DNA of 39,639 nucleotides from a virus: positions 1 through 39,639 of the IMG/VR virus record IMGVR_UViG_3300030107_004353; one strand, written 5' to 3'. A program made the position numbers and the translations under genes. This document shows positions 7,202 to 34,357 of this stretch, one piece after another (position 1 is the stretch's first letter; every line of letters starts with the position of its first letter). Under the pieces are notes generated by a model that searched no databases, was not told the origin of the DNA, and saw only the letters and a program-made list of their open reading frames with translations.

Positions 7202-7389
7202 ATCTTAAACCTCAAATCATAAGAATCTAATGAAAGTTCCCCTTCAAATTCATCAGGATTTTTTATTGCCCATATCATGTCTTCTGTACTCCCCTTGTAG
7301 ATACATCTCAAAGGGTGTCCTTCCTTGTGAAAGTAAACTTCCCAATCGTCTCTTTCCCCCATGCCTAACTTTTCTTTTTCATCACTCAT
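7198..7389 (-). CDS. Small acidic unknown protein
   Basis: A 63-aa protein from ATG 7389, in a TGATG overlap with the upstream stop; the ATG at 7410 lies in the coding region of that gene and is less likely. It contains WEVYFHKEGHPLRCIYKG, TEDMIWAIKNPDEF and a short acidic tail, consistent with a small alpha/beta domain. No family is recognised. It is sandwiched between a zinc protein and the helicase loader with overlapping ends, so it is probably made in step with them and may assist replication. Confidence 0.65.
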   Translation of the reverse strand: MSDEKEKLGMGERDDWEVYFHKEGHPLRCIYKGSTEDMIWAIKNPDEFEGELSLDSYDLRFKI

Positions 7390-7589
7390 CACGCCACCCT
7401 GTTTTCCCAATTCCCAAGCTGAATTGAATCAATGTCAGGTGTGTCGGGCATTTTTGACCTTTCAAGTGCAATAAGCCTTGCGCCTAGCACAACACTATTG
7501 CAAGTATCGCAGCACCTTCCTTTGTTTGCTAAAGGGTGTGGGTTGTGCCCATACCCGTGTATTTCGTTCTTACAAATAATACAGTTCAT
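7389..7589 (-). CDS. Small Cys-rich zinc-binding protein
   Basis: A 66-aa protein from ATG 7589, with GAAAGAGAG just upstream; the longer form from 7655 would begin with an unlikely Arg/Lys-rich stretch derived from a hairpin. C3, C6, C26, C27 and C30 with H11, H15 and H18 (CIICKNEIHGYGHNPHPL, then CCDTCN) form a zinc-finger-like site followed by a helix VVLGARLIAL. Similar short proteins occur in many marine phages, usually without known function. Its stop overlaps the next start. Confidence 0.7.
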   Translation of the reverse strand: MNCIICKNEIHGYGHNPHPLANKGRCCDTCNSVVLGARLIALERSKMPDTPDIDSIQLGNWENRVA

Positions 7590-7624
7590 AGTTCTCTCTT
7601 TCTTTATTCGTTTGTTCTTTGAAC

Positions 7625-7659
7625 GTTCTGCGTGTGCGCGCCTACACACACGCAAGAAC
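7625..7659 (-). other. Hairpin between the RecT-like gene and the zinc-protein gene
   Basis: GTTCT-GCGTGTG (7625-7636) pairs with CACACGC-A-AGAAC (7647-7659), a 12-bp stem with one bulged base and a ten-base loop. It lies in a 79-base gap after the stop of the RecT-like gene. No T-run follows on the minus strand, so partial termination, RNA processing or differential mRNA stability are more likely than strong termination. Confidence 0.55.
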
Positions 7660-7668
7660 TATTGTGAC

Positions 7669-8661
7669 TTACAGGTTCGACTCTTCCTGTACGTCTGATA
7701 CGGAATCTTCTGTTTCTATTACTACCTCGTCCTCCATAACTCGTGAAATCTCACAGTTCTGGTAGTTTTTCTCCCCTTTGTTTTCAAAGGTAAGGCTCAC
7801 AAGGACTCTTGTCCCATTCTCAAGACCTCTATACATTTCAGGACGCTCCTCAAAGATGAACGGAGATACGTTGTACTCATCCCATCTAGGTTTGTATCCC
7901 TCAACTGTAAACACATCCAAGAAAGTAATCTTGGCATAAGGTCTCCCATTTGCTGATTGCAATTCAGTGAACGTGTTGATAGTAAGTTCTTTTGCCTCTG
8001 TTCCCATCTTGGTCTCATCTTTCCATTCCTGCTTGAAATGGGTCTGAGCGTTACCTGTGTCGCTCTGTTCCGTAGGAACAGAGTCAGCAACGTATGGTTT
8101 GGTAGTAACTTCAGGTTCAGGTACATTCACAACAGTTTGCGTACCATCCTCTGCCCACTCTACATCTGCACCAAGTTCAGATGGCTCGTATGCACCTGTG
8201 CCATTGAATGCGTCAGGACAATACCATTTAGCACCATTAGTCATGGCTCTTGCATAGAGCATATTTCGTGGGTATTTTGTAAAGTTTGGGTTCTTAAGCA
8301 GGTCAGCTTTTTGTGCATCCTCAACAGTAAATGTTGAATTTCCCACAATTTCCCAATTACTTTCAGACTTCTCAAGAAAGTCTATTGAACACACCTTATC
8401 GGTGTGCTCTTTTACTCTGTAGTTGTATTTCCCCGACCTCTTTAGCATGTCAGCAAACTTATGTGAGTAAAACGAGGGTTTCCCTTGCACTACATAAATG
8501 CTTGTCATTGCTTCAAAAGGTCCTAGCCCGAACTCATGTCCTGCCATGATTGTAACCAAGGCTTGTTGAGGGCTCTTGAATTGCGAGAAAAGACCTGACT
8601 CAACAAAGTCTTTTGCAATTCCTTTCATGTCGTTATACGACATAGGTAAGTTATCTGCCAT
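7669..8661 (-). CDS. RecT-like single-strand annealing protein
   Basis: A 330-aa protein with the pattern of the RecT-type recombinase group: QQALVTIMAGHEFGLGPFEA (32-51), IYVVQGKPSFYS (55-66), RSGKYNYRVKEHTDKVC and KYPRNMLYARAMTNGAKWYC (129-148). This region is the annealing core that binds single-stranded DNA. Residues about 225-310 form a separate beta-rich segment after an acidic Thr/Ser linker and may be an OB-like or partner-binding domain; that part is inference. RecT proteins pair complementary strands in phage recombination, often with an exonuclease; no classical exonuclease gene adjoins it, only the PD-(D/E)XK protein downstream. GAAGGAGAA serves as ribosome site. Confidence 0.75.
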   Translation of the reverse strand: MADNLPMSYNDMKGIAKDFVESGLFSQFKSPQQALVTIMAGHEFGLGPFEAMTSIYVVQGKPSFYSHKFADMLKRSGKYNYRVKEHTDKVCSIDFLEKSESNWEIVGNSTFTVEDAQKADLLKNPNFTKYPRNMLYARAMTNGAKWYCPDAFNGTGAYEPSELGADVEWAEDGTQTVVNVPEPEVTTKPYVADSVPTEQSDTGNAQTHFKQEWKDETKMGTEAKELTINTFTELQSANGRPYAKITFLDVFTVEGYKPRWDEYNVSPFIFEERPEMYRGLENGTRVLVSLTFENKGEKNYQNCEISRVMEDEVVIETEDSVSDVQEESNL

Positions 8662-9137
8662 TACAGTTCTCCTTCTATTTCGATTGTGTTCTTGATAAGA
8701 CTTTGAGCCTTGTCAAGAATTTGTTGTTGTATCACTCTATTTGGGTTGATTTTAATTGTCAATCCTGACTCACGCCTTGCATCTGCGATGCGATTAGCAA
8801 CAGTCCCTTTGTATTTCTTAGAGATAGAATTCAAGTGAACTCCATTTGCTTTTGGTCTTGCAGGGGGCTTGAATAGTTTAGCCTTATCCTCATCACTAAC
8901 ACCATCAATATCCTCAATGGTTCTGATAATCGCAGGGTCCCAGTCCACAGATGTGTACTCTCTCCTAATCTCTACGTCAGCCACATTTACTGCATCAAGC
9001 TTATCAGGATGCTTAGCAAATTTTTGCATTATATCCTGTTTTGATTTAGAAGCCTGACTTTTTGCGTACTTAGCAAGTGCTTCCCAAACCAAGTAACTCT
9101 CTACTTCGTCCGGGAATATTTCATAGTCCTCACTCAT
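8661..9137 (-). CDS. Unknown protein upstream of the RecT-like gene
   Basis: A 158-aa soluble protein whose start is preceded by GAAGGAGAAATG. It is acidic in the first half (EDYEIFPDEVESYLVWEALAKYAK) and basic in the middle (PPARPKANGVHLNSISKKYKGTVANRIADARRE). The basic helical part could contact nucleic acid. The last 30 residues are an amphipathic helix. No family is recognised. Its stop overlaps the start of the RecT-like gene by one base, so a role with recombination is a fair inference, but not more. Confidence 0.65.
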   Translation of the reverse strand: MSEDYEIFPDEVESYLVWEALAKYAKSQASKSKQDIMQKFAKHPDKLDAVNVADVEIRREYTSVDWDPAIIRTIEDIDGVSDEDKAKLFKPPARPKANGVHLNSISKKYKGTVANRIADARRESGLTIKINPNRVIQQQILDKAQSLIKNTIEIEGEL

Positions 9138-9571
9138 AGTGGCATTTCTCCTTCCTTAGGCTCGATGTATTTCTCATCGAACACTGTTTCCTCTTGGTCT
9201 TCCTCTCCCTCTTGTGTATCGGTATCGTCTAGTCCAAAGCCCTCAACCAAAGGAATTGATTGCTTTTCCTCCTCTGTTAATGAATCATTTTCCAGATTCA
9301 TTTCCTCATCAGTTACTGCCTTAGCCTCTACAGTAGGCTCATCACGCTCAGCCAACACCTCGTCCAATGCGTCCTCTGGAACACTGACTGTAAACTGTGG
9401 TTGCTTCTCAGTCTTGAGCGTAATCATTCCTGTACCTTTACAATCTACGCAAGGCATCCCTGCTATAGGTGTCTTGCTCTTTATTCTTTTGTCTCCATAA
9501 CGTGAGATTGTTTGCACGTATATGTCTCCATAGCCCTTACATTCAGGGCAAAATTTTGGTTTACCCGGCAT
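9134..9571 (-). CDS. DnaJ-type zinc ribbon protein with acidic tail
   Basis: A 145-aa protein in two parts. Residues 8-50 carry two C-x-x-C-x-G-x-G units (CPECKGYG with C8 and C11; CVDCKGTG with C41 and C44), the pattern of the DnaJ central zinc region but with only one pair of units. Residues 55-145 are strongly acidic and Thr/Glu-rich, probably disordered. A zinc knuckle plus acidic tail could be an adaptor or DNA-mimic-like protein. There is no J domain. The ribosome site is AAGGAGAACA and the ATGA end is coupled to the next gene. Confidence 0.7.
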   Translation of the reverse strand: MPGKPKFCPECKGYGDIYVQTISRYGDKRIKSKTPIAGMPCVDCKGTGMITLKTEKQPQFTVSVPEDALDEVLAERDEPTVEAKAVTDEEMNLENDSLTEEEKQSIPLVEGFGLDDTDTQEGEEDQEETVFDEKYIEPKEGEMPL

Positions 9572-10136
9572 TTTGTTCTCCTTCCCAATTCAATGGTAGT
9601 TTGTATTCGCCAGTTTGTTCTTTCCATTCGCCTACCCTTCTCTCCCTGTTACCTTGCCTATCGACTATGCTGTAACGTATGGGAGCAGCAAACGAACGAC
9701 CTTTGTACCCATTCATACCTACTCTTATCAGTGCATAATCTGATTTATTGTCAGGATGGATTGACTTCATGTCTCCATATTCCTTGACTAATTTCTTAGA
9801 TGCACCTGTAGCCTCAGTAATAACTGCGTACATAGTTGCGTTTGTATCCTCTGCCACATGTTCTATAAAGTTTGACCACATCGATTTGTCCTCGGGTAGC
9901 ATCGCTAGAACAGGGTATGGCATGGTCTTGAGCATTTTTCTATCTACTCCAAACCTAGTTAGTGCCTTGAAGAACTTGTCTTCATGGTCTTGAATCTCAG
10001 GGGGAACCTTAGTTCTATCGGCTAATACCATTAGAACCGAGGTAACCTGCCCCGTAGTGTACGTCTGTTGGTCTATCATTAACTTTAACGATTGAACCAT
10101 TGCGTTACTTATTTTATCTAGTTCTTTTCTTTCCAT
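9561..10136 (-). CDS. Unknown protein next to the VWA gene
   Basis: A 191-aa protein starting two bases after the VWA-gene stop, with AAGGGG as ribosome site inside that gene's end, so the two are coupled. The first 70 residues are helical; the last 60 (SDYALIRVGMNGYKGRSFAAPIRYSIVDRQGNRERRVGEWKEQTGEYKLPLNW) look like a small beta-sheet domain. No catalytic motif is apparent and no family is recognised. It follows directly after the MoxR and VWA genes, so it is a candidate third component or client of that pair. Confidence 0.65.
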   Translation of the reverse strand: MERKELDKISNAMVQSLKLMIDQQTYTTGQVTSVLMVLADRTKVPPEIQDHEDKFFKALTRFGVDRKMLKTMPYPVLAMLPEDKSMWSNFIEHVAEDTNATMYAVITEATGASKKLVKEYGDMKSIHPDNKSDYALIRVGMNGYKGRSFAAPIRYSIVDRQGNRERRVGEWKEQTGEYKLPLNWEGEQNAG

Positions 10137-10138
10137 TA

Positions 10139-11845
10139 TTACCCCTTGAAAAACGTCAACACTTGCGTGATGTCGTGGTTTGTTATTTCATTGTAATCGT
10201 CATGTTGTATGGACAGTTCTACAGGCAGTGGATGCTTATTCATATCCTTGCCGTAACTCCCATTGACATCTTGAAGGTACATGGTTGCAAACCTTATACC
10301 TTTGTTTCCCCAAGCATTTGCTCTTGATGCCACACACTCACGAGCTTTTTTCTCGGCTTCCTTCCTTGAATTTGACAAGCCTGTGTAGCAGTTGTTAGGT
10401 TCCCCGTCTGTAATGATGAGAACCTTTGCATTCGTTAGGTCAATGCTTTCCTCAAGACCTTTCATGGCACCACATAAAGGTGTGTTACCTTTAGAAATGT
10501 CAGGATAGGTATTAGGAGCAATAGGAACCAAAACTGCATTAACCCCCTTAATCCTATTAGAATGCCCTATTCCACCTGTAAACCCATAAGCTTTGGTGTC
10601 AGGAAACCTGTCCATTACTGCAGTAGTTACGCTTAGCGCTTTGTGCATTCGACTAAATTTGCTTCTAGTGCCCCCCATAGAGGACGACATATCCACAAGA
10701 ATAACCATTTCTGTTGCAGTCTGAGGGTGCTTAACGAAAATGTTTGGGTCTCCTAAAGCAGGTAGCCTCCAAGCATTTCTTGAAACGCGATGCCCTGATG
10801 CACTAATCTTGCGTGAATTCCTATCCAACGCGCCTTCCAACTCTTGAGAGTCAAGCCTAATGCTAGTCTCAAAGGACAAGTTAACGGCATCATCTATAAT
10901 CTCAGCTCCACACTTATTGCCTGTAGTCAGCTTTTCTGCAGATTCTATCGCATCTTTGTTTTCAACCTCATCATTAACAACATCTTGAAATGTCGCATCC
11001 TCTTGTATCTCAGCTACGCCTGCAACCATACGTTCTGCGTTATCTTTGCCTTGTTTGCTTTCTTGCACTACTGCATCCGTTACTGCTTTCACAGTCTCTG
11101 CCACAACATCCTCGGTGCTTACGTTGGGTGCTACGTCTTGTGGAGCAGTGTTCTCCTCTTTCTCAAGATGAAACCTAGATGCAATCTCCAATGCTGCAAG
11201 TATGCTAGTAGTGGGATTAACTGAGTCTCTAACCCTTGCTATTGCATCCTTATGCTTTCTGCATATATCCTCAATAATCGGGTCTTTAATGTCGCGAAGA
11301 GTAGCGTTTTGGTACAGGTATTGTCGGAACCAACCAAAGCGTAGTTCGTAGTCATCCCCCTTATTCCCTCTCAAATGGTGCACACCCCTTAAGTACCCTG
11401 ATTCTGCATCTAAGCTTTTCACGTCTTTAATGTGGTCTCGCCATATCTTTGGTCTATGGAAATGCTCACTAGCTTTCTTTGCGCAACGTCTATTCTCGAA
11501 TATGCTATAAACCTCATCGAAAATCTTTAAAGCAACCCTACTGTTAGACAGATTCATGGGGTCGCCTTCTCCTGCAAGTTGCTTCGCTAACTTTGCCTTA
11601 ACCTGCTTCGCTAACTTCTTTGGATGGAACTTAACTTGCCCTATCGTAAGCAAGTTAGCATTGAATGGCAGTCTACCCGTAGGTTTCTTGATAACCCACG
11701 CGTCTCCATAGGTGCTTACACCTGAATCGTACGTGCCACCCTTAGAATTCTCAACCTGAACCTCATTATTAAGCCCTGCAACGTGTTGCAGGAAATTCAT
11801 GTGGTCTTTGGTCTCGTCTTGTGGTTTTCTGTATTGCTTTTTCAT
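10139..11845 (-). CDS. VWA-domain protein, CobT-like partner of the AAA+ ATPase
   Basis: A 568-aa protein with a C-terminal von Willebrand factor A domain. A complete MIDAS metal site is present: D385-x-S387-x-S389 in ILVDMSSSMGG, T455 in GNTPLCGAM and D480 in IITDGEPNN. Residues about 245-350 are acidic and Val/Asp/Glu-rich, like the linker in CobT-type proteins. The N-terminal 230 residues are basic and Lys/Arg-rich and of unknown fold. In the chelatase and MoxR-VWA groups this domain works with an AAA+ ring to insert metals or remodel protein complexes. The AAA+ gene lies eight bases upstream, as in those groups. The substrate here is unknown. GTAGGAGAACA is the ribosome site. Confidence 0.8.
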   Translation of the reverse strand: MKKQYRKPQDETKDHMNFLQHVAGLNNEVQVENSKGGTYDSGVSTYGDAWVIKKPTGRLPFNANLLTIGQVKFHPKKLAKQVKAKLAKQLAGEGDPMNLSNSRVALKIFDEVYSIFENRRCAKKASEHFHRPKIWRDHIKDVKSLDAESGYLRGVHHLRGNKGDDYELRFGWFRQYLYQNATLRDIKDPIIEDICRKHKDAIARVRDSVNPTTSILAALEIASRFHLEKEENTAPQDVAPNVSTEDVVAETVKAVTDAVVQESKQGKDNAERMVAGVAEIQEDATFQDVVNDEVENKDAIESAEKLTTGNKCGAEIIDDAVNLSFETSIRLDSQELEGALDRNSRKISASGHRVSRNAWRLPALGDPNIFVKHPQTATEMVILVDMSSSMGGTRSKFSRMHKALSVTTAVMDRFPDTKAYGFTGGIGHSNRIKGVNAVLVPIAPNTYPDISKGNTPLCGAMKGLEESIDLTNAKVLIITDGEPNNCYTGLSNSRKEAEKKARECVASRANAWGNKGIRFATMYLQDVNGSYGKDMNKHPLPVELSIQHDDYNEITNHDITQVLTFFKG

Positions 11846-11853
11846 TTGTTCTC

Positions 11854-12669
11854 CTACGATGTAAAGTGTGCAGTTGCTGATGTCATAACAACTGATTGGT
11901 AGTCAGCCTGTACCTTGTCTCTGAGGTTAATTCTGATAGCATCAACTGCTTCAAATCCTCTACCCACAAGTTTGGCTAAGTAACACAAATCTCTTGTAGA
12001 AATGTATGTAACAGGTTCTTTCCTCATGTCGTCTGCCCAATTCATAAATGCCTGAGCATACTGTTGGTCTCCACCAAGTATGTCCTCTAATGCGAGTTTC
12101 TCCTCACATAGTGGCTCTGTAACGAACTTGTAAATCATCATCCTAGACTTGAGAGCCTCGTCAAGATTCACAACGTTGTATCCTGCTGATGGTGGATTCG
12201 CAGTGGAAAGTAACTGGAATTCAGGATGAACCTCAATCTTTTCTCCACCATTCTCGGTAAGAGTAAGTATCCTAGTCTCATCTGTGACCCCCATAATTCT
12301 GCCAACGTGTTGTTGGTTTAGTCTTGTGATTTCGTCCATTAATAAGAACGAACCTTCTCTTGATGCACGCGTTAACGGACCGTCTGCCCAAGTCATAATA
12401 GGACGTCCTTGTTCATCGGCTTTTGATTGCCAACCACCAACTACGTCAATGATGTCCAATCCCGGATGGCAACCAACGTACTCGGCTTTCTTGCCTGACT
12501 GTTTAATTACCTCGTGCATTACTTGTGTCTTACCACAACCTGCAGTACCTAGCACTGCGACAGGGAATGGTGCGACTTTCTTTATGTCCTCAATCAAGTC
12601 GAGACCTGCTTGAGTAAATCTTGGTTTATGAGTTCTTTCTCGAACTGTTTTTAATTGCATGTGTGCCAT
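11854..12669 (-). CDS. MoxR/CobS-like AAA+ ATPase
   Basis: A 271-aa protein from ATG 12669, chosen because AAAGGAGAACAC stands directly before it; the longer form from 12738 reads back through the neighbouring small gene. Walker A is GTAGCGKT (41-48, K47); Walker B is FLLMDE with D112 and E113; a sensor region LLSTANPPSAGYN and the arginine-rich ALKSRMMIYKF follow. This order is typical of the MoxR/CobS branch of AAA+ proteins. It presumably forms a hexamer that drives conformational change of the VWA protein encoded next. CobS-type genes occur in some cyanophages, where they are proposed to act in cobalamin synthesis or tail assembly, but a cobalt chelatase needs CobN, absent here. Confidence 0.85.
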   Translation of the reverse strand: MAHMQLKTVRERTHKPRFTQAGLDLIEDIKKVAPFPVAVLGTAGCGKTQVMHEVIKQSGKKAEYVGCHPGLDIIDVVGGWQSKADEQGRPIMTWADGPLTRASREGSFLLMDEITRLNQQHVGRIMGVTDETRILTLTENGGEKIEVHPEFQLLSTANPPSAGYNVVNLDEALKSRMMIYKFVTEPLCEEKLALEDILGGDQQYAQAFMNWADDMRKEPVTYISTRDLCYLAKLVGRGFEAVDAIRINLRDKVQADYQSVVMTSATAHFTS

Positions 12670-12679
12670 GTGTTCTCCT

Positions 12680-12850
12680 TTATTTAAGCACTCGTTTTCT
12701 AACGTCCTCTGCATAAGCCATGAGGTACTTATATTCATAAGACTTCATGAGTTCTGCTCTTTGCGATGACTCTAGTTTTTCAATAGCATAGATAAGCGTT
12801 TGTGCCCTCATTGCTAGTTCTTGTAATCGTTCTCCGATTGTTACTTGCAT
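12680..12850 (-). CDS. Small helical protein ahead of the MoxR gene
   Basis: A 56-aa protein with ribosome site AAAGGAGAACTT. It is entirely helical in character: MQVTIGERLQELAMRAQTLI, then an amphipathic continuation ending in VRKRVLK. It is the first gene after the promoter at 12864-12901, so it is co-transcribed with the MoxR and VWA genes, and it ends ten bases before the MoxR start. It has no cysteine or membrane segment. It could be an adaptor or regulator of the ATPase, which is inference from position only. Confidence 0.65.
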   Translation of the reverse strand: MQVTIGERLQELAMRAQTLIYAIEKLESSQRAELMKSYEYKYLMAYAEDVRKRVLK

Positions 12851-12863
12851 AAGTTCTCCTTTC

Positions 12864-12901
12864 TATGTACAAGTTTACCATTAATCGTATAAGTTGTGCA
12901 A
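12864..12901 (-). promoter_or_regulatory. Promoter for the MoxR/VWA/recombination genes
   Basis: On the minus strand, -35 TTGCAC (12901-12896), an 18-base spacer, an extended -10 TGGTAAACT (-10 hexamer 12877-12872), then TTGTACATA. The 17-base string TGNTAAACTTGTACATA also occurs at 16121-16105 on the same strand, the two copies differing only at N. The -35 box lies in one arm of an inverted repeat, so repression or activation is likely. Confidence 0.6.
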
Positions 12902-12954
12902 GAGCATAGAATAAACCACACTCTTGCACTGAGCATTTTTTGGTCTTATACGAT
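12884..12954. promoter_or_regulatory. Nested inverted repeats around the MoxR promoter
   Basis: The outer arms are ATCGTATAAG (12884-12893) and CTTATACGAT (12945-12954), both perfect. The inner arms are GTGCAAGAG (12896-12904) and CTCTTGCAC (12921-12929), also perfect, with a 16-base loop. The right outer arm runs into the end of the upstream gene and includes its stop codon. The inner left arm covers the -35 box. On the plus strand the inner hairpin is followed by six T, so antisense termination is also possible. Confidence 0.6.
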
Positions 12955-13245
12955 ATAGTCCCCATCTGCTTTTGCAGTTGGTGTAGGCGTCTTGTCATCA
13001 GATGCAGTTTTTACTGCCTTGTTGTCTGATGATTTAGCCTTCTTAGGTTGTTCTGCAGGTGCAGTAAACCCAATAGGTTTGCTATAGCTTTCTTGCAAAA
13101 TCTTGTTTGCATTTAAGCCGTTGTTTTCGCAAACTTCTTTTAGTTCAAACCAAGATGTTGTAGACTCGATGTTCATGCCCATAGTGTTTAGTGCATTTAT
13201 AACGATTGACCTCTTAGCTTTTTTCTGTAAAGGTTGCCAAACCAT
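12946..13245 (-). CDS. Unknown protein with basic linker tail
   Basis: A 99-aa protein with the strong ribosome site AAAGGAGAACATT. Residues 1-58 look like a compact helical domain (VINALNTMGMNIESTTSWFELKEVCENNGLNANKI); residues 60-99 are Lys/Ala/Pro-rich and probably disordered, ending GDYIV. It is the first gene after the AT-rich hairpin element at 13271-13335. A DNA-binding or histone-like helper is possible from the basic tail, but no family is recognised. The stop codon lies within the outer inverted repeat that controls the next promoter. Confidence 0.65.
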   Translation of the reverse strand: MVWQPLQKKAKRSIVINALNTMGMNIESTTSWFELKEVCENNGLNANKILQESYSKPIGFTAPAEQPKKAKSSDNKAVKTASDDKTPTPTAKADGDYIV

Positions 13246-13270
13246 AATGTTCTCCTTTCTTTCAAACTGG

Positions 13271-13335
13271 TTATTTAATTTATTTATTCATATAAATATG
13301 AATAAATTAAATAAGCGATACGATGTGTACGTATC
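13271..13335 (-). promoter_or_regulatory. AT-rich leader hairpin element, copy 1
   Basis: Bases 13271-13314 form a long A/T palindrome with arms of 19 bases (TTATTTAATTTATTCATAT in one orientation) and a four-base bulge. CGC and a second small stem, GATACG/CGTATC (13317-13335), follow upstream on the minus strand. The same two-part design occurs at 15984-16045. It stands in the untranslated leader of the gene at 12946-13245. It could stabilise the mRNA, form a processing site or bind a protein. Confidence 0.6.
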
Positions 13336-13346
13336 ATGACTCATTC

Positions 13347-13517
13347 TCATTCACTTACGAATAGTTGAACGCTTGACGAATCATTACTACGCTCGTAGTA
13401 GACCTCATAAACCCATTGATTGATGTCTATATCATCAACAGGTTCTTGGAGTGTAACTCGCACAGGCATGTCCTTGGGCATGTGCGAGAGTTGTTCAATT
13501 AATTGTTCAATAGTCAT
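13347..13517 (-). CDS. Small acidic unknown protein
   Basis: A 56-aa protein from ATG 13517, with ribosome site GAGGAGCAAGA inside the upstream gene and an ATGA overlap; the longer form from 13577 would lack a ribosome site. Contents are TIEQLIEQLSHMPKDMPVRV, then VDDIDINQWVYEVYYERSND, fitting a small alpha/beta fold. The start MTIEQLIEQLSHMPKDMPV resembles many small phage proteins with a helix-Pro-strand beginning. No function can be given. It is the last gene of the coupled small-gene chain. Confidence 0.6.
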   Translation of the reverse strand: MTIEQLIEQLSHMPKDMPVRVTLQEPVDDIDINQWVYEVYYERSNDSSSVQLFVSE

Positions 13518-13663
13518 TCTTGCTCCTCTTGTGCTTTTATTTGTAAATCCTCTAAGTGCTTGTAAACTGGAAACCATGGGTCCTGAGGGTCAATCTGCCC
13601 CTCCATTTCTGACTCTCGGATATAATCTAGTACAATCTGAATTGCCTTAACTATTTCAATCAT
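13514..13663 (-). CDS. 49-aa unknown protein with EEQE end
   Basis: Starts at 13663 behind GAGGAGCAAGA and ends at 13514 in an ATGA overlap with the next gene. Sequence begins MIEIVKAIQIVLDYIRESE and ends KAQEEQE. The last codons (GAG GAG CAA GAA) are at the same time the ribosome site of the downstream gene. It is acidic and helical with no cysteines. It is too short for family recognition, but both ends are tied to real neighbours, which supports coding. Confidence 0.6.
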   Translation of the reverse strand: MIEIVKAIQIVLDYIRESEMEGQIDPQDPWFPVYKHLEDLQIKAQEEQE

Positions 13664-13857
13664 TCTTGCTCCTCTATTGTTACATCCCATAAATCGCTAA
13701 TATAATTTAAGTCTTTGGGCATATCATATTCTCCAAGTCCCTCTGTTTCATAGAAACCTTCAAAAATATTGAATACCTGTTGTTCTGTTTGTGGGTCATC
13801 ATGTGTCCACTCTAAAAATCCTGTTCCTTGATTGCATGTAATTGTGTATGTTTTCAT
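13660..13857 (-). CDS. Small acidic unknown protein with EEQE end
   Basis: A 65-aa protein from ATG 13857 behind AAAGGAGAATAATT. It has TYTITCNQGTGFLEW, then DPQTEQQVFNIFEGFYE and a Trp-containing end, typical of a small alpha/beta domain. It ends in TIEEQE, whose codons double as the ribosome site of the 49-aa gene. No family is recognised. Net charge is strongly negative, as in many small phage proteins that bind host factors. Confidence 0.65.
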   Translation of the reverse strand: MKTYTITCNQGTGFLEWTHDDPQTEQQVFNIFEGFYETEGLGEYDMPKDLNYISDLWDVTIEEQE

Positions 13858-13859
13858 AA

Positions 13860-14048
13860 TTATTCTCCTTTATTAGTTACTTCAAGATTATGAATTTCTA
13901 GGTATTCAATCATTAGTCTTACGCTTTCTAGCCTGTCGGTTTGACAAGGTAATCCTGTACCATTTATGTCGCATTCCAAAGAAAACCGAATATCCTTTCC
14001 AATCTTGGCTAATTTTTCCTGCTCTTTTTCTGTTAATATTCCACTCAT
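13860..14048 (-). CDS. Small unknown helical protein
   Basis: A 62-aa protein starting behind GAGGAGCAAGA in an ATGA overlap with the upstream gene. The first half (TEKEQEKLAKIGKDIRFSLECD) and the second (ESVRLMIEYLEIHNLEVTN) are helical, with two cysteines between (SLECDINGTGLPCQ). The end NKGE overlaps a purine stretch serving the next gene. No family is recognised; it is one of the coupled chain. Confidence 0.65.
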   Translation of the reverse strand: MSGILTEKEQEKLAKIGKDIRFSLECDINGTGLPCQTDRLESVRLMIEYLEIHNLEVTNKGE

Positions 14049-14326
14049 TCTTGCTCCTCATCTAGTTCCTTAAAGTATTCCAATGCATTTTCGTATTCTG
14101 CATCTAGTTCATCGTCATCATATTGGTACAATGCTGTTTCTCCTGTGTGTAATCCTTGTAACTCGTGCAAGATGTCGCCAAAATTTCCACCTTCCCAACC
14201 TTCTGACCAATATTCAAGTATTGCTTCTATCTTGTCATATCGTGTAACTTTTAATTTAGAAATCATATCCTCTACATTCCCCCGTAAATGCTGGTCACGT
14301 CTATTAATCTCGTCTTTAATACTCAT
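14045..14326 (-). CDS. Acidic helical unknown protein with EEQE end
   Basis: A 93-aa protein from ATG 14326, in an ATGA overlap with the upstream gene and behind GGAGAGCAAGA; the longer form from 14386 lies inside that gene. Residues 1-40 are mixed charge (KDEINRRDQHLRGNVEDMISKLKVTRYDKI), then EYWSEGWEGGNFGDILHELQGL, and a very acidic end ELDAEYENALEYFKELDEEQE. No motif is recognised. The strongly acidic C-terminus might mimic DNA or bind a host protein; this is speculation. Confidence 0.65.
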   Translation of the reverse strand: MSIKDEINRRDQHLRGNVEDMISKLKVTRYDKIEAILEYWSEGWEGGNFGDILHELQGLHTGETALYQYDDDELDAEYENALEYFKELDEEQE

Positions 14327-14751
14327 TCTTGCTCTCCTATCTCCCAATATCTTCTGTCCTCTGAAGGTCGTTTCCATATCCCCCATGAGTTAGCTTCTAC
14401 AATGTTCCACATAAGTTCGCTTATGTCCTCCCAATCATTTTCCTCATCTCTAATCATTCCGTAGTTTGCTCCATTAGGTCTAAGTAAGTTTATGTCGTGA
14501 TAATCTCCTAGTATCTCTACCCTGTCTCCAGCCCATGAACCTGCTAGTTGCTCACTATCGTAAGGCATTTGCATATCATTAGGCATAGAAAAGTCGCCAC
14601 TTTGGTCTAGTGGACTAGCCAATAGAAATCCTAGTGCTGACATAGTTCCCCTGCCACCTATAAATTCAGTCGCTTTTAAGCCCTCGCCAAATTTATGTGG
14701 GTTTAAGAATTGTTTTTTATCGTAGTTTACAGGCATAAAATATTGTCCCAT
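14323..14751 (-). CDS. MGQYF-type small protein of unknown function
   Basis: A 142-aa protein behind the strong site AAAGGAGAACATT. The beginning MGQYFMPVNYDKKQFLNPHKFGEGLKATEF resembles a group of phage and actinobacterial small proteins that open M-G-Q-Y and carry an F-L-N-P-H segment; I know of no assigned function. Further conserved-looking parts are GSWAGDRVEILGDYHD and ISELMWNIVEANSWG. It ends GEQE, again built from the next ribosome site. Possibly an intracellular modifier; catalytic residues cannot be named. Confidence 0.65.
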   Translation of the reverse strand: MGQYFMPVNYDKKQFLNPHKFGEGLKATEFIGGRGTMSALGFLLASPLDQSGDFSMPNDMQMPYDSEQLAGSWAGDRVEILGDYHDINLLRPNGANYGMIRDEENDWEDISELMWNIVEANSWGIWKRPSEDRRYWEIGEQE

Positions 14752-14776
14752 AATGTTCTCCTTTTTTAAGTTTGTG

Positions 14777-15286
14777 TTATTCAGGTTTAATTAAGTTAAC
14801 GTGATTAATCTCTTTTTCACTTGCCCTCCTTTCTGCGTTATGTTCATCGCGTAGTCTTTTTACATGCTTATTGTCATTATATTCATTGTCTATATATAAA
14901 AGCCCACCAACACACTGTTCGCAGTTGCAGTATGGGTATTCCTCTGACGGAGTTTCCTGTTCCCAGTAATCAACACCCTCTTTAAAGCAGTTCTCCTCGT
15001 ATTCTATGCAACCCCCACTGCATCCATTATCTGAGGCTATACCTAAGTCAAAGATAACTACTGCTCGTAGTCTTCCTCTGTGTCTTTGAAACTCTACAGT
15101 TTCGTTGTCTATAAACACATCATTGTGTAACTTAAACAAAGGCTCAGTTGTATTTGTGCAACCATCAGAGTCATAAACAGTAACCTTTTGGGTTTCCTTG
15201 CAAGCCGCGATTACGCTTTTTAGCCAACCCGTAAACCTATCCCTGCGACCTTTTTTCCCATGCTCCCATTCAACTTTTATATTCAT
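14777..15286 (-). CDS. Cysteine-rich unknown protein
   Basis: A 169-aa protein behind GAAAGGAGAACAC. Eight cysteines are present (C29, C43, C89, C93, C100, C120, C122, C125), the last six in CSGGC, CF and CNCEQC contexts, which looks like one or two metal sites. The N-terminal 80 residues form a predicted beta-rich part with KVTVYDSDG and RLRAVVIFDLG; the C-terminus is basic and helical (KHVKRLRDEHNAERRASEKE). No enzyme family is recognised. The start overlaps the end of the upstream gene in ATGA. Confidence 0.65.
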   Translation of the reverse strand: MNIKVEWEHGKKGRRDRFTGWLKSVIAACKETQKVTVYDSDGCTNTTEPLFKLHNDVFIDNETVEFQRHRGRLRAVVIFDLGIASDNGCSGGCIEYEENCFKEGVDYWEQETPSEEYPYCNCEQCVGGLLYIDNEYNDNKHVKRLRDEHNAERRASEKEINHVNLIKPE

Positions 15287-15480
15287 CGTGTTCTCCTTTC
15301 AGAACCATAGTATTCGTCAGCAGTTTCGCATAGCAGTTGCAGTGTGTTATAAGGCAACTTGTATGTGTAGTGTTTGTCGCTAGTTCGTTGCCAATTCCTT
15401 CCTGTTGCGTTGCGTTTGTCTTGTAATCGTGTATTTAGGTAATCCTCGATTTTATCAATCATATTTTGTCGTGTAATCAT
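15283..15480 (-). CDS. Small basic unknown protein
   Basis: A 65-aa protein from ATG 15480, with GAAAGGA about ten bases upstream. It begins MITRQNMIDKIEDYLNTRLQ, is rich in Arg and Lys (DKRNATGRNWQRTSDKHYTYKLPYN) and ends in an acidic-then-basic helix. The positive charge suggests nucleic-acid contact. No family is recognised. The ATGA end couples it to the Cys-rich protein. Confidence 0.6.
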   Translation of the reverse strand: MITRQNMIDKIEDYLNTRLQDKRNATGRNWQRTSDKHYTYKLPYNTLQLLCETADEYYGSERRTR

Positions 15481-15563
15481 AGCGTTGCAGTCCTTTCGTT
15501 AGCTTCGTGGTATGTGAGCCAGTTTAAAGTCATGGCTCAGGACTGAGCGTAAGGAGTCTACGC
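15481..15563 (-). other. Spacer with two hairpins
   Basis: This 83-base gap has GAGCCA/TGGCTC with an 11-base loop and AGCGTA/TACGCT with a seven-base loop. Neither has a U-tract on the minus strand. It separates the first gene of this group from the chain of coupled genes and may tune their relative expression. No gene is seen. Confidence 0.45.
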
Positions 15564-15962
15564 TTATTTGAGGTGTTCCCACCTGCTATAAGCGTCATTA
15601 GAAATCGTGTCTTTGTCTAGTTGCTCCCAATCCTCGTCTGTGTAATCCTCCTCGGGAATGTCTGTCCAATCGTCGAAGTACGAGTTCATGTCATCTTGCA
15701 TGTCCTGAACCTTAACTTTCCCGTTCTGCATAACGTCGTCAAAGGTTTCTGCAAACTCGAGTATGTCTTTGACCCCACCTATGAGGTGTGCCTTTTCATC
15801 GTTGCTCATCATTCGTGAGGTTTCCACAGAACGATAAGCTAAATCTCGAAGGTAGCTTTGCGTTAACCTAGCGTGTGATAAAAGCTTGATTAAGTCGACT
15901 AGCTCGTCCACACCTATGTAGACGATATCGTTTTTGGTTTGGTTTTGAATTGGTTTTGTCAT
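15564..15962 (-). CDS. Unknown acidic protein, first gene of the 15.9-kb transcript
   Basis: A 132-aa protein behind AAGGAGCTGAG. The N-terminal 75 residues form two or three helices (VDELVDLIKLLSHARLTQSYLRDLAYRS, AHLIGGVKDILEFAETFDDV); the last 45 are extremely acidic (YFDDWTDIPEEDYTDEDWEQLDKD). No known family. Its leader contains the AT-rich hairpin element at 15984-16045 and the promoter at 16105-16121. An acidic early protein could act on host transcription or on nucleoid proteins, but this is inference from charge and position. Confidence 0.7.
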   Translation of the reverse strand: MTKPIQNQTKNDIVYIGVDELVDLIKLLSHARLTQSYLRDLAYRSVETSRMMSNDEKAHLIGGVKDILEFAETFDDVMQNGKVKVQDMQDDMNSYFDDWTDIPEEDYTDEDWEQLDKDTISNDAYSRWEHLK

Positions 15963-15983
15963 CTCAGCTCCTTAGGCTTGTGT

Positions 15984-16045
15984 TTATTTAATTCATTCAT
16001 TCATATAAATATGAATGAATTAAATAAGCGATGCGTGCGTACGCA
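15984..16045 (-). promoter_or_regulatory. AT-rich leader hairpin element, copy 2
   Basis: Bases 15984-16027 form a palindrome with 19-base arms (TTATTTAATTCATTCATAT in one orientation) and a four-base bulge. CGC and a short stem TGCGT/ACGCA (about 16032-16045) follow. Length (44 bases), loop and flanking CGC match copy 1 at 13271-13335; sequence differences compensate across the stem (T-A to C-G changes). Such covariation shows that the paired structure, not the primary sequence, is kept. Confidence 0.65.
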
Positions 16046-16104
16046 AGAGAATTAACCACCCGTCATGAAATGCGTATGTATCATTGTCGCATTCATGTTC
16101 ATGT

Positions 16105-16121
16105 TATGTACAAGTTTAGCA
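16105..16121 (-). promoter_or_regulatory. Extended -10 promoter for the 15.9-kb operon
   Basis: On the minus strand, TGCTAAACTTGTACATA, an extended -10 (TG-N-TAAACT) sharing all but one of 17 bases with the promoter at 12864-12880. No good -35 stands at the usual distance, so an activator or the extended -10 may compensate. The transcript would have a leader of about 140 bases containing the copy-2 hairpin element. Confidence 0.5.
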
Positions 16122-16141
16122 TATCTTGCGAGGTATTTATA

Positions 16142-16604
16142 GCGATAAAATAGAGCAGAGCAGAAGTTTCTCAGGTTTTGCGTAACATAAACATGCGTTA
16201 ATGGGGGGTAAAAAGGGGGGTAATTAAGATTGAGCAAACTTCCCCGGGAAAACGTAAACGCGTATTATAGGTTTAAATCGCGACAATTTAACTTCCCTTT
16301 AACTTCCCTTACGCATTTTGCGTTGTCGCGTTTTCGTAATGCGTCGCGGCGTCGCGTACGGGTTTAACGAATACCCGGTTCAAAGTTCGCAAGGCGGGCG
16401 AACTTTGAACGAAGCAACTTCCAGCTTTCGCTGGAATCTCAAAATTTTAGTGGGGTAACTTGGTCTTTTGGAATCTGAGCTCGTGCACAACCAACCAAGC
16501 CCAACCCCCATTAAAAGTTCATGCTCTGTAGAGCACAAACTTTAGCTAAAAATTTTCGTGAGCATTAACGTGAGCGAGCGAAGCGAGCGAAAAAATTTTT
16601 AGGC
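16142..16604. other. Non-coding structured region between the two minus-strand transcripts
   Basis: No convincing gene is seen. The stretch has perfect or near-perfect stems: CGCGACAA/TTGTCGCG (16279-16330), GTTCAAAGTTCGC and its complement (16378-16410, 13 bp, loop 7), TTCCAGC/GCTGGAA (16419-16436), a 12-bp stem with one CA/CA internal loop (16514-16543), and arms CTAAAAATTTT / AAAAAATTTTTAG (16546-16602). There is a tandem 11-mer TTTAACTTCCC at 16287-16308 and a GAGCGA-type repeat at 16572-16590. It lies just after a terminator. A replication origin, a structured RNA or a packaging-related site are all possible. Confidence 0.5.
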
Positions 16605-16640
16605 AAAAAAAAGCCCTCTAAGAAATAAATCCTAGAGGGC
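16605..16640 (-). terminator. Intrinsic terminator after the 61-aa gene
   Basis: On the minus strand, GCCCTCTA, a 12-base loop, TAGAGGGC, then eight T. This is a textbook rho-independent terminator located 22 bases after the stop codon of the gene at 16663-16848, and it separates the first short minus transcript from the next operon. Confidence 0.9.
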
Positions 16641-16662
16641 TAAAGCTTTTAAAGTTATTTAG

Positions 16663-16848
16663 TTAATCCATGTTATCAACTATTTCAATGTAGGCAACAT
16701 TTAAACCTGCTTCCCTCATATCTTTAAAAGCTTGTTCTTTGGCTAACTTTTCCAATCTTGCGTTGGCAATTTGCTCTCTCGCAGATTTTAATAAATCAGC
16801 TTTTATCGGAATGAGCTTATTTTGTGTATTCAATTTCTTTTCCTCCAT
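16663..16848 (-). CDS. 61-aa Lys-rich helical protein
   Basis: The product begins MEEKKLNTQNKLIPIKADLL and continues as a long charged helix (REQIANARLEKLAKEQAFKDMREAG), ending VAYIEIVDNMD. It overlaps the zinc-finger gene by 32 bases, and its ribosome site is weak, so translation may depend on coupling. A short helix-rich protein with basic N-terminus could be a regulator. It is followed by a strong terminator, so the pair forms a discrete early or control transcript. Confidence 0.6.
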   Translation of the reverse strand: MEEKKLNTQNKLIPIKADLLKSAREQIANARLEKLAKEQAFKDMREAGLNVAYIEIVDNMD

Positions 16849-17203
16849 AGGTCTTTTTCATTTTCGCAACTGCTGATTTATTAGCTTTACACCAGTTTTT
16901 ATTTGCATGTCCCTTCCCCTCTGCATTAAAGAAACCGTTTTTAGTCATGATTTCTTTGCCACATCGTCCACATGCAAAGGAATAAGTTCTTTTCCCCTTT
17001 TTGAACTTTTTCTTAGTTAGTTCTAAAAGCGTAAATGGTGTAGCTTTTTCTGGTTCGGTCAATAACTCCTCCCCAATTAAAGAACTATTAAAAACTTTTG
17101 TTAAAGCTTCATTCATTGATTGTTGGTTTTCAATCATGATTTTTAATCCTCCTGCTATGTCCTCCATAGTTGTTTGTTTTTTTGAATTTGTTCCCTTTGT
17201 CAT
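16817..17203 (-). CDS. Zinc-finger protein at the head of the minus block
   Basis: A 128-aa protein from ATG 17203, with AAGGAG nine bases upstream; the longer form from 17293 would run through the operator region. The first 40 residues are helical and could multimerise (MEDIAGGLKIMIENQQSMNEALTKVF). A basic middle (LTKKKFKKGKRTY) leads to a zinc site C78-x-x-C81 ... H99 ... C105 in CGRCGKEI and GHANKNWCK, followed by a basic helix. This suggests a DNA-binding regulator. It is the first gene on its transcript and its upstream region carries an operator-like repeat, so autoregulation is plausible. Confidence 0.65.
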   Translation of the reverse strand: MTKGTNSKKQTTMEDIAGGLKIMIENQQSMNEALTKVFNSSLIGEELLTEPEKATPFTLLELTKKKFKKGKRTYSFACGRCGKEIMTKNGFFNAEGKGHANKNWCKANKSAVAKMKKTYGGKEIEYTK

Positions 17204-17260
17204 AAGTTTTAACTCCTTACTTATTTTGGGATTGTAACCCCCCCAAGCCGGAGGGATTAC

Positions 17261-17313
17261 TTGAACAAGATTACTAATAAAGAATCTTGTCATACATTAC
17301 CTTGACAAGATTA
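17261..17313. promoter_or_regulatory. Operator-like repeats before the zinc-finger gene
   Basis: AATCTTGTCA (17283-17292) and TGACAAGATT (17303-17312) are perfect inverted arms with a ten-base gap. A third, slightly changed copy, TTGAACAAGATTA, lies at 17261-17273. Three half-sites of one sequence in 53 bases suggest binding of a dimeric or tetrameric regulator. One arm overlaps the -35 box of the plus-strand promoter at 17303-17330. Confidence 0.6.
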
Positions 17314-17330
17314 TGTTTCGTGATATTGTG
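17303..17330 (+). promoter_or_regulatory. Candidate plus-strand promoter inside the operator
   Basis: Perfect -35 TTGACA (17303-17308), a 16-base spacer, then extended -10 TGATATTGT (hexamer TATTGT 17325-17330). It would transcribe the hairpin-rich stretch that follows and lead towards the terminase genes. It overlaps an operator arm, so it is probably regulated. Confidence 0.5.
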
Positions 17331-17936
17331 TTAAATCCCTACACTTAGGCTTGGGCGGGCGTTTCAGGTGGTTGGGTTCTTGTTTTCCCGAGGGAGCGAG
17401 GGCTACTAAACTATCTTGGTTCTTGCAACTCGCCGGTTAAGCAGGCTGTGCTTATCTTGGTCCAGCTGAAGAAGCTGGATGCTCCCTCTCTAATAGGCTT
17501 AACATTACCCTGAAGGATATTCATTTCAGAGCTCTGGGATTGCGAAGGGGTTCTACCCCTTTGCTCGCCACGGGGGCGAGACCCCGTCTTGGTTGGGTGG
17601 GATTTTGAGAGTGGAACGGTTAGGTTTAGTTCACTGTGTGAACGAAACTAAAAGAACCTAGGGGGCACGAGCCCCCTACAGAACTGCTCCCTTCGCAGTT
17701 CTTTCCTGTTCTTTTACCCTACGGGCTTACCGTACCACGTTGCCGGGTATTCGTAATATGTATAGTGGTTCCGAGCGTGCTGAAATCTCTATCGTACTGT
17801 GAGGGGATATAGGGGAGAATGTGTGCGCCCGTGCTATGCGCTACAAGAACGTTCCTCGTTCTAAGCGTTCTACGAACTCCCTACTCTAAAGAAAAGATAT
17901 ACTACGTATATCCAAAAGAAAGGTCTCTCCCCTCTT
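17314..17936 (+). other. Hairpin-dense non-coding region upstream of the terminase genes
   Basis: No convincing gene is visible in about 620 bases. Perfect stems are TCCAGCT/AGCTGGA (17461-17479), AAGGGGT/ACCCCTT (17545-17561), CTCGCC/GGCGAG (17564-17580), GTTCAC/GTGAAC (17629-17643), TAGGGGGC/GCCCCCTA (17659-17678), AGAACTGC/GCAGTTCT followed by a T-rich tract (17680-17702) and GATATAC/GTATATC (17896-17912). ACGGGG/CCCCGT (17570-17587) competes with the CTCGCC stem. The string TATCTTGGT occurs at 17412 and 17453. Position directly before the terminase suggests a packaging site, an origin, or a structured RNA. Confidence 0.55.
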
Positions 17937-17966
17937 TTGACAGAATGTTTAAAAATGCGTTATTAT
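17937..17966 (+). promoter_or_regulatory. Terminase promoter
   Basis: Consensus -35 TTGACA (17937-17942), 18-base spacer, -10 TATTAT (17961-17966, five of six consensus bases). The start of transcription, about seven bases further, falls on or next to the ATG at 17974, so the message would be leaderless. No Shine-Dalgarno site is present, which agrees with that. Confidence 0.75.
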
Positions 17967-17973
17967 GCTCGTT

Positions 17974-18627
17974 ATGGCTGATTCAAAAAACCCGTATCGA
18001 CAGAAAACAAAAAGACTGGTGTCTCAAGGGAGAACGTCTAAAAGGCTATCAGGGTTAACACCAGATGGCTTGAGGAAAAGAGTTCTTGATGCCCTACCTC
18101 GGTGGGAATCCTACCCTAGGTGGTTTAGAAGAGTGCTGGTCTTACTTCCTACACATGGAGACTTGTATTCCATTGCTGAGGAATTAGGTATGCAGTCCGA
18201 CACATTGATAGAAATGATTGATAAAAGACCTACATTTGGGAAGCTTGTGAGGTTTGTCAATGATAATGGACACTACCCTGCTTGTGCCACAACCAAAGAA
18301 TATTTAAAGCATGCCAATCTAGTTGAGCACTATGCTAATGAAAGCACTGTCTCGGCTGTGATACACTTGGAAACTAATGCAGGACAAGCACCAATCAACC
18401 ATAAGATTGTCGAATCTGCTGGATGGTTTGCAAATATTGAGAATGATACTGAAAGAGTGAGGCGTCAACAACAGCATTCACTTGACAAATATGAGCAAAA
18501 AATAGATTCTCAAGAGGTAATAGAGGAAGTGGAAGAAGGTTTGCAACCGTTTGTTCGTGACATAAATCCGGAGGAAAAAGATGGCAACGAAGAAAGTAAA
18601 GTTTCCGAGGAGACAAGCCCTAAGTAG
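17974..18627 (+). CDS. Terminase small subunit
   Basis: A 217-aa protein. I chose ATG 17974 over 17965 because the promoter -10 box ends at 17966, so the earlier codon would not be fully transcribed. The N-terminus is basic (KNPYRQKTKRLVSQGRTSKRL); residues about 55-95 include a helix-turn-helix-like stretch (GDLYSIAEELGMQSDTLIEM). The C-terminal part is helical, then acidic. Size, helix-turn-helix and position just before the large subunit identify the DNA-recognition subunit of the packaging motor. Its end overlaps the large-subunit gene by 47 bases. The family itself is not recognised by sequence. Confidence 0.75.
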   Translation: MADSKNPYRQKTKRLVSQGRTSKRLSGLTPDGLRKRVLDALPRWESYPRWFRRVLVLLPTHGDLYSIAEELGMQSDTLIEMIDKRPTFGKLVRFVNDNGHYPACATTKEYLKHANLVEHYANESTVSAVIHLETNAGQAPINHKIVESAGWFANIENDTERVRRQQQHSLDKYEQKIDSQEVIEEVEEGLQPFVRDINPEEKDGNEESKVSEETSPK

Positions 18628-20146
18628 AGCTGTCCCTAAGTATACCCCTTCGCCTTGGCAGGAGAATATGCACAGAAATCAAGCCAAGCGTAAATGGGTG
18701 TGGGCAGGACGAAGAGCAGGCAAAGGTAGAGCAGCCATTCAGGAAGCTATCTCTACAATCCTAGAAGCATCTAAGACCAAGTTCATTGTAAACGGCGAAG
18801 ATGTAACAGATACCTTAGTTCCTGATATTCATATATGGACTGTCGCCCCAACCAAAGCCCAAATGAGACAGGTATGGAACGAAATGAAAGCGTACATACC
18901 TAAATATATGTGGAAAAACTACAATGGTAGAGCAGGTGGACGTGGTGGTGCGTGGCATGAAGATGAATTTTATGTAGAATTAGAAGTAAGAACTCCCAAC
19001 GGGGGGTTTGCAACCGATACAGTGAGGAAGAGCGTGTTGTGGGAACTACGGTCTGCCGATAATCCCGAATCTCTGCAGACCGTGGGGTTAGACTTTTTAC
19101 ATATTGCAGAGAGCCAAGATATAAAAAAAGTAGCTTGGGACAAGGTTGAATGGGTAACTGAGTCTCCCGGCAGAATGGGAAGAATATTTGCAGAGGGAAT
19201 CCCCCCTATCTCAAGGTCACACTGGTTTTCCAGACAATTCATGTACGCAGAAAACAATCCTTCTCTCCAGAATCTTGCAGTTCGTGCTACAAGCTTCGAC
19301 AATATGTACCTGACTGAACAGCAGAAAGAAAACATACGTGAGCAAAAAAATACCACTGCTGAATGGATATGGGAAAGAATGGTAATGGCAAAACAGCCAG
19401 ATGTAGGTGGTGGATTTTTCAGAAAGATTGACGATGCTGCAACTGGCGCAGAGATTTTAAGACCCAAGGAAGGACATAAATATGTTGCAGGTCTTGACCT
19501 CGGTAAGCAAGTAGACCCCACTGTATTGATAATTAAAAACAGAGTTACCCGTGAATCTGTTTACAGCATGGAGATGTTAAAGACAGACTGGGTGCTACAG
19601 AAGGAAACAATCATTTCTGAGACAGCCAAATGGCGCTGTGAAACTGTAATGATGGACTCTTCAGGTATGGGAGGAGATGTATTATTTGACGAATTATTAA
19701 ATCTCGGCGTCCCGGTAATTGGCAAGAAGTTCACTCCTCAAACTAAATACCAGTTATTCCTGAATTATGCTGTGGCTTTGCAAAATGGCACAGTGACTTT
19801 TCCTCCAGAATGGGCTAAGTTGCGCAGCGAGCTAGATGCCATTGAAGTACAACAAGCTGGTCTTGGGTACACGTTCAGGCATCCTAACTCTCAGCATGAC
19901 GACTGGGTGGACGCCGAGGTATTAGCGCTTATGGCTTGCGACCCCGCAGAGGCTATGGAGGAAGACTACGAAGTAGTGCAAAGTATACGGACTGTTGCAC
20001 CATTGACGCAAAATGGTGTATCTTATACATCAGGACGCTTGATGCGTTGGAGACAAAAAAGAAAAGCAAAGCAACTACAAGAATTGCGAAAAGTGACAGA
20101 GATTAGCACAAATCAAGAAAGCATAATATTAGATGCGATGGAATAA
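18581..20146 (+). CDS. terL: Terminase large subunit
   Basis: A 521-aa packaging motor protein. The ribosome site GGAGGAAAAAG precedes the ATG. The ATPase domain has a Walker A variant AGRRAGKGR (42-50, K48) and a Walker B-like LDFLHIAE with E177 (the usual D-E pair is A-E). The RNase H-like nuclease domain has D306 in VAGLDLG, D359 in VMMDSSGMGGD and the pair D440-D441 in HDDWVDAE. It uses ATP to pump DNA through the portal and cuts concatemers. Length is typical for the family. The 47-base overlap with the small subunit gene supports coupled synthesis. Confidence 0.92.
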   Translation: MATKKVKFPRRQALSRAVPKYTPSPWQENMHRNQAKRKWVWAGRRAGKGRAAIQEAISTILEASKTKFIVNGEDVTDTLVPDIHIWTVAPTKAQMRQVWNEMKAYIPKYMWKNYNGRAGGRGGAWHEDEFYVELEVRTPNGGFATDTVRKSVLWELRSADNPESLQTVGLDFLHIAESQDIKKVAWDKVEWVTESPGRMGRIFAEGIPPISRSHWFSRQFMYAENNPSLQNLAVRATSFDNMYLTEQQKENIREQKNTTAEWIWERMVMAKQPDVGGGFFRKIDDAATGAEILRPKEGHKYVAGLDLGKQVDPTVLIIKNRVTRESVYSMEMLKTDWVLQKETIISETAKWRCETVMMDSSGMGGDVLFDELLNLGVPVIGKKFTPQTKYQLFLNYAVALQNGTVTFPPEWAKLRSELDAIEVQQAGLGYTFRHPNSQHDDWVDAEVLALMACDPAEAMEEDYEVVQSIRTVAPLTQNGVSYTSGRLMRWRQKRKAKQLQELRKVTEISTNQESIILDAME

Positions 20147-34349: not shown

Positions 34350-34357
34350 GGAGAAGC

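Follow-up and report, generated by a model that had tools for sequence, protein, structure and literature searches.

Between the leftward and the rightward genes of the phage analysed here (the whole 39,639-nucleotide stretch of DNA is referred to below as 'the window') lies a gene-free gap that is most probably a divergent control region, both real and unusual, rather than a new RNA gene, separating leftward (early-type) genes from the rightward terminase and structural genes. The explanation that best accounts for this region as a whole, to which we give a little less than an even chance, is that it combines a promoter and an origin-like element (termed 'element C') with a dense array of hairpins that represents the edge of a recombining, template-switch-prone cassette. 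Under this explanation, a conserved block next to the terminase genes would act as DNA, carrying the terminase promoter and, as a candidate origin, element C; the hairpin segment, which is swapped along with the adjacent leftward gene, would owe its stems and their perfection, at least in part, to template switching during replication (the phage has a gene for a RecT-like annealing protein), a process that would yield two-sided base-pair changes with no need for a conserved RNA product.

Genome setting and relatives

The window is the map of a circular marine phage, the ends of which (1-78 and 39560-39637) overlap by 78 bp, so that the genome measures about 39,560 bp; the circle was opened inside a repetitive tail-fibre-type gene, as was that of one relative (G005). 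Leftward genes fill positions 5947-17203, and the rightward set begins with the terminase operon at 17974 and continues across the junction of the map to 5574, leaving a gap at 17204-17973. A first-pass annotation of this DNA had described about 620 gene-free bases just before the terminase genes; the gap proves to be slightly larger than that, and the ATG of the terminase operon follows it directly. The region is gene-free in all relatives inspected, none of which carries coding sequence in its place, and inserts were found only downstream of the conserved block.

The first leftward gene (16817-17203, minus strand) starts at 17203 behind a ribosome-binding site, TAAGGAGTT, and encodes a small cysteine-rich (zinc-finger-like) protein with zinc-ribbon matches below the cutoff only. 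On the other side of the gap, the first gene of the terminase operon (17974-18627, plus strand) can be called TerS by position only, a family search with its product having returned nothing above noise; its open frame extends back to 17965, where an ATG falls inside the promoter's -10 box, and the ATG at 17974 was taken as the start. The terminase large subunit (TerL) follows at 18581-20146 on the plus strand (phrog_2, E 2e-21). Elsewhere the window encodes the RecT-like annealing protein (7669-8661, E 9e-15), a DnaC-like helicase loader (6329-7201, E 2e-43), an AAA_5/VWA protein pair (10139-12738) and, at 9134-9571, a product weakly similar to families of the antitermination protein Q type (E 0.007). 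Ahead of leftward genes there are two copies, 91% identical, of an AT-rich palindromic element of 55 nt (13268-13322 and 15981-16035).

Searches with TerL returned 14 and 15 IMG/VR loci encoding a protein 81-89% identical to that of the window, and the group considered here consists of 16 IMG/VR records (two of which first came to light through the element C motif) plus the window. No relative was found among 84,980 bacterial and archaeal genomes, either by TerL or by a 36-mer.

The conserved block and the terminase promoter

An alignment of 12 sequences revealed that the block equivalent to 17729-17973 (plus strand) is conserved in sequence, and that the DNA to its left is unalignable in most pairs; the block is reached by 16 of the 17 group records. 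No consensus fold of the block is supported: folding the two strands gave 7 and 4 pairs, with no two-sided change in any of them. Within the block lie an imperfect dyad, element A (17762-17785), which is conserved, and element B, GGGGATATAGGGGAGA (17803-17818, plus strand), which was considered as a T7-like promoter and dropped, being present in one copy only.

The right end of the block carries a sigma-70-type promoter for the terminase operon, TTGACA-18-TATTAT (17937-17966, plus strand), with 7 nt between its -10 box and the ATG. The same spacing is found in 14 of 16 sequences (L008 differs; the piece of G002 used in this count was cut, and the spacing recurs at the other end of that record). 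The promoter would drive the terminase operon, with transcription starting at the start codon or right beside it, and the terminase transcript should be leaderless. As a separate observation, four relatives (L007, L014, L016 and L023) have an extra gene inserted at the exact junction of promoter and terminase operon, with the same start position (for example, 107-814 in L014 and 3637-4371 in L007), and the DNA of this gene is very similar between distant relatives; in L014 it encodes a GIY-YIG-like protein (MUG113, E 4e-5).

Element C and its distribution

Element C (17886-17923, plus strand) is a 7-bp palindrome between purine tracts, able to form a hairpin with a 7-bp stem and a 3-nt loop. 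It is present in 16 of the 17 group records, the remaining one (L015) beginning inside TerL, short of the region. A 38-mer of the block is found exactly in 9 IMG/VR contigs, and, of the 16 group records that have the element, 6 show identical flanks around a different AT-rich palindrome core, so that the exact core is not indispensable.

Shorter queries located the exact core (17895-17913) in three tailed-phage lineages outside the group, in each case between AAAGAAA-type flanks, against a chance expectation for a 25-mer of at most 0.002 occurrences per 1e11 positions. The first lineage (G017/G018; 71.5 kb, GC about 0.37) has no similarity to the window's TerS, TerL or portal within 12 kb. The second (G019) is a 6.5-kb fragment in which TerL, a PDDEXK nuclease, the motif, a 187-aa gene and a P22-type portal occur in that order, and the third (G020) is 58.4 kb long with a GC content of 0.51-0.59 in the parts measured. 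Apart from the motif, the pieces fetched from these lineages resemble the window at the nucleotide level only in a few matches that are short and weak. The carriers of element C are unrelated lineages of very different base composition, each with one palindrome per genome near the point of gene divergence, where the element again falls between genes, at or close to a switch in their direction; in the other lineages it does not go hand in hand with an abundance of hairpins. A 450-aa membrane/repeat protein (window 4222-5574) is common to the group and G017 at 38-40% identity, which hints at overlapping hosts; in G017 its gene adjoins element C.

Blastn searches of INPHARED and PLSDB with element C gave nothing convincing, a negative that is weakened by the low-complexity filter; among three hits with E values of 0.3 to 3, one had no hairpin and one lay inside a coding gene. 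A match in L072 was likewise dropped, its core being different and located inside a predicted gene. Exact motif strings of the element were not found in the papers searched.

Replication, packaging or transcriptional control

Phage replication origins are found in divergent control regions, and element C resembles them in being palindromic, close to divergent genes and near the minimum of the detrended GC skew. The distance to that minimum is 557 bp in the window (39.6 kb), 969 bp in G017 (71.5 kb) and 1019 bp in G020 (58.4 kb), which places all three long genomes tested within 1.02 kb, a closeness with a chance of about 0.03 per genome. As expected of a cis-acting origin, the site is single: exactly one copy was found in 10 of 12 records in searches allowing up to 3 mismatches, the two exceptions (G001 and G002) lacking a copy of the exact core because both carry the variant core. 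Of the roles that the first-pass annotation had offered for the region, that of an origin has become the leading one, since three unrelated phages have this single-copy palindromic element close to the minimum of their GC skew. The skew part of this argument is confounded, because the minimum coincides with the switch in gene direction and may reflect the coding strand rather than replication. Unlike known origins, element C comes with no initiator found here and occurs (unusually) as the same site in unrelated phages. Blastp of ORFs of at least 60 aa revealed no initiator common to these phages, the matches being the 450-aa protein and a short tail-fibre-type match in G017, and a weak TerL match in G020. 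Element C most likely marks, or forms part of, a replication origin; the more specific proposal, a new cis element that is portable among phages and starts replication through a shared host or phage factor, is on balance a doubtful one.

The position of the block directly upstream of the terminase operon also raises the possibility, contained in the first-pass annotation, that it is a pac (or cos) site cut by the adjacent terminase, which we consider improbable. The circular maps are compatible with headful packaging, and in G019 the element lies between the TerL and portal genes. However, the region is crossed by contigs and circular assemblies alike, with no common physical end: the circle of G001 is closed by an exact 77-bp overlap and that of G002 by one of about 100 bp (1 mismatch), and the bases within the region at which the two circles open differ. 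As assemblies, these contig ends and circular closures argue weakly against a fixed cos end. Furthermore, TerL is about 5.7 kb from the element in G020, no terminase was seen near it in G017, and the TerLs of the lineages that carry element C are unrelated or only distantly related, which makes a shared pac sequence unlikely. (Runs of 10 Ns were noted in the block of G006 and in the hairpin segment of G007.)

The same features have been weighed as transcriptional control and nothing else, in which element C and dyads A and B would be operators, or element C an insulator or terminator, of a divergent early/late switch. Element C lies 13 bp upstream of the -35 box, a position fit for an operator; on the minus strand its hairpin is followed by the U-rich UUUUCUUU; and in other lineages it is again intergenic near divergent genes. 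Against this, a sequence that recurs unchanged in unrelated phages, in a single copy each, would require a shared regulator, the stem is weak and AU-rich (-5 to -6 kcal/mol), and the orientation of the element relative to the nearest gene differs among lineages. We consider control alone an unlikely account. The stem and loop of element C also recall the N4-type hairpin promoters, which are read by a virion RNA polymerase. Such a system would comprise several hairpin promoters and a recognizable polymerase of that kind, whereas element C occurs in one copy only and a 2072-aa protein of the virion region has neither a family match nor a convincing PDB chain.

The hairpin segment as a cassette edge

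To the left of the block lies a hypervariable segment (17204-17728) that is set apart by its excess of stems, its non-alignability and its exchange among relatives. When perfect stems of at least 6 bp with loops of 3-12 are counted, 17314-17936 contains 10, against a window-wide mean of 2.0 per 623 nt (sd 2.0), making it the densest run of the window, and the twelve stem-richest sliding windows all start at 16951-17501. The first-pass annotation, which had counted at least seven such stems, was well founded here: the two that it quoted, TAGGGGGC/GCCCCCTA (17659-17678) and AGAACTGC/GCAGTTCT (17680-17702), exist, the T-rich TTCCTGTTCT comes after the second, and coding DNA is indeed poorer in such elements, with three large coding blocks at only 0.8 to 2.0 times expectation. 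In the segment proper there are 10 stems, where dinucleotide shuffles average 1.2 and none of 300 reaches 10; four of the five other gaps in the window have 0 to 4.4 times the expected number, and one 101-nt gap has 7.0 times. The whole gap also folds more stably than all shuffles (20 per strand), with energy z scores of -6.4 on the plus strand and -5.9 on the minus strand; over 400-nt windows, the gap's scores of -3.1 to -4.2 are high yet not extreme. Better-folding 400-nt windows occur at 34001-34400 (z -5.3) and 12801-13200 (z -4.6).

Comparison of relatives demonstrates how readily this segment is replaced. G001/L005 and L002 have TerLs 97.8% identical and blocks 96-97% identical, and their hairpin segments are unalignable; the window and G001 have TerLs only 81% identical, yet their segments are about 70% alike over 395 columns. 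Between L005 and L002, identity is 97.6% to one side and 98.3% to the other of an exchanged stretch of about 2.6 kb, which consists of the segment plus adjoining leftward genes, contains short similar patches and has its right edge at the left edge of the block. In six comparisons of differing segment types, similarity restarted at that same edge every time. The first leftward gene varies with the segment: it is of the cysteine-rich type in the window, G001 and G002, of a related but distinct type in L002 and L004, and encodes a different protein of 160-165 aa in L009, L010 and L016. Because the segment and this gene swap together and similarity resumes at the block, the segment represents the edge of an exchanged cassette. 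The BstA system (PMC8585504) likewise has a noncoding DNA element that travels with an adjacent gene: the 63-bp aba element, which has direct repeats at its ends and is the partner of an abortive-infection gene. In contrast, no abortive-infection gene was recognized in the window.

Structured RNA or template switching

The right half of the segment (17542-17738) folds alike in the window, G001 and G002, into two hairpins and a multi-branched domain, all on the plus strand. Hairpin H1 (17542-17564) recurs in both G001 and G002 and shows three two-sided changes, including a U-G/G-U flip; H2 (17570-17587) has two; and the domain (17611-17738) consists of an outer helix, a hairpin at 17624-17648 and a helix at 17649-17716 around the stems at 17659-17678 and 17680-17702. 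In the alignment of these three sequences (A4), 93.4% of 182 cells pair, and two-sided changes affect 16 of 61 pairs, against a shuffle mean of 5.8 (none of 500 shuffles reached 16) and at most 2 in slid controls; one-sided changes affect 2 pairs. The structure used for this count was taken from the fold of G002 itself, a bias in its favour, and the count covers three sequences only; a further alignment (A6) was left out because its inner hairpins were misaligned, and another (A5) was judged by eye only.

Covariation among relatives, which the first-pass annotation had proposed as a test, is present, in three genomes only. A covariance model run over 20 sources recovered those three and L005 (nearly identical to G001), and the remaining relatives carry other hairpins, so that the structure is not conserved group-wide. 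Stable folding is more widespread, with z scores of -6 to -19 across the window, G001, G002, L004 (about -10) and L007 (-15 to -19).

The possibility that this stretch encodes a structured RNA, as the first-pass annotation had suggested, is that of a folded noncoding or leader RNA, changing rapidly in sequence and swapped between phages, which would be transcribed either from a plus-strand promoter near 17302 or in the opposite direction, forming the 5' leader of the first leftward gene. Its predicted promoter does exist as a promoter-like site within the segment (TTGACA-16-TATTGT, 17302-17329, plus strand, 10/12 consensus), and 9 of 12 sequences have plus-strand sites of this kind inside the segment, compared with 2 of 12 for minus-strand sites. 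These sites, the two-sided pairs with their shuffle test, the wobble flip in H1 and the strong folding of five segments all speak for an RNA. However, beyond the restriction of the fold to three genomes, only 7 of the 11 distinct segments have significantly more stems than expected (those of L002, L009, G007 and L008 do not), and folding is weak in L009 and L010 (z between -1.2 and -2.1) and in L002 (near -2). Both strands of the segment fold about equally, and wobble pairs are rare. A comparison of G-T with A-C mismatches, meant to tell the strands apart, gave 12 to 9 in neutral inverted repeats and 104 to 77 cells in pairwise tests that are non-independent, which does not decide the strand. 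The positions and spacing of the promoter-like sites vary, conservation of the 17302 site is not firm, and neither a conserved promoter nor a conserved terminator for the segment was seen among relatives. In Rfam, no family reached its gathering score anywhere in the window, and none matched 17180-18000 at E <= 10. We regard the segment as lineage-specific and as something that need not be an RNA gene, which is possible; the structured-RNA account in full strikes us as rather unlikely.

GOLLD, ROOL and OLE (PMC12286853) are large phage and bacterial RNAs with family-wide covarying structure, the first two often near tRNA genes. The segment is like them in its length of several hundred nucleotides, its elaborate predicted stems, its noncoding nature and its location in a phage genome, and unlike them in having a fold confined to three genomes, no Rfam match and no tRNA gene anywhere in the window. 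On phage RNAs of the present type, nothing relevant was found among the papers listed in literature searches.

Replication template switching may be the source of the stems, and it fits the many two-sided and few one-sided changes, the symmetry of the strands and the fast turnover of the segment as well as selection on an RNA does. It is described (PMC8794818) for RNA genes, where it makes and maintains hairpins and leaves multibase two-sided changes; the perfect stems and multibase two-sided changes of the segment are of the same kind, whereas here the process would be deduced from those traces, for which selection on structure might also account.

Implications

The hairpin segment serves as a warning case, in that dense hairpins accompanied by two-sided changes resemble a phage RNA and also fit a combination of recombination and template switching. 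If element C is indeed an origin, it would offer, from sequence alone, a handle on the start of replication in uncultured marine phages and on the host factors that they share.
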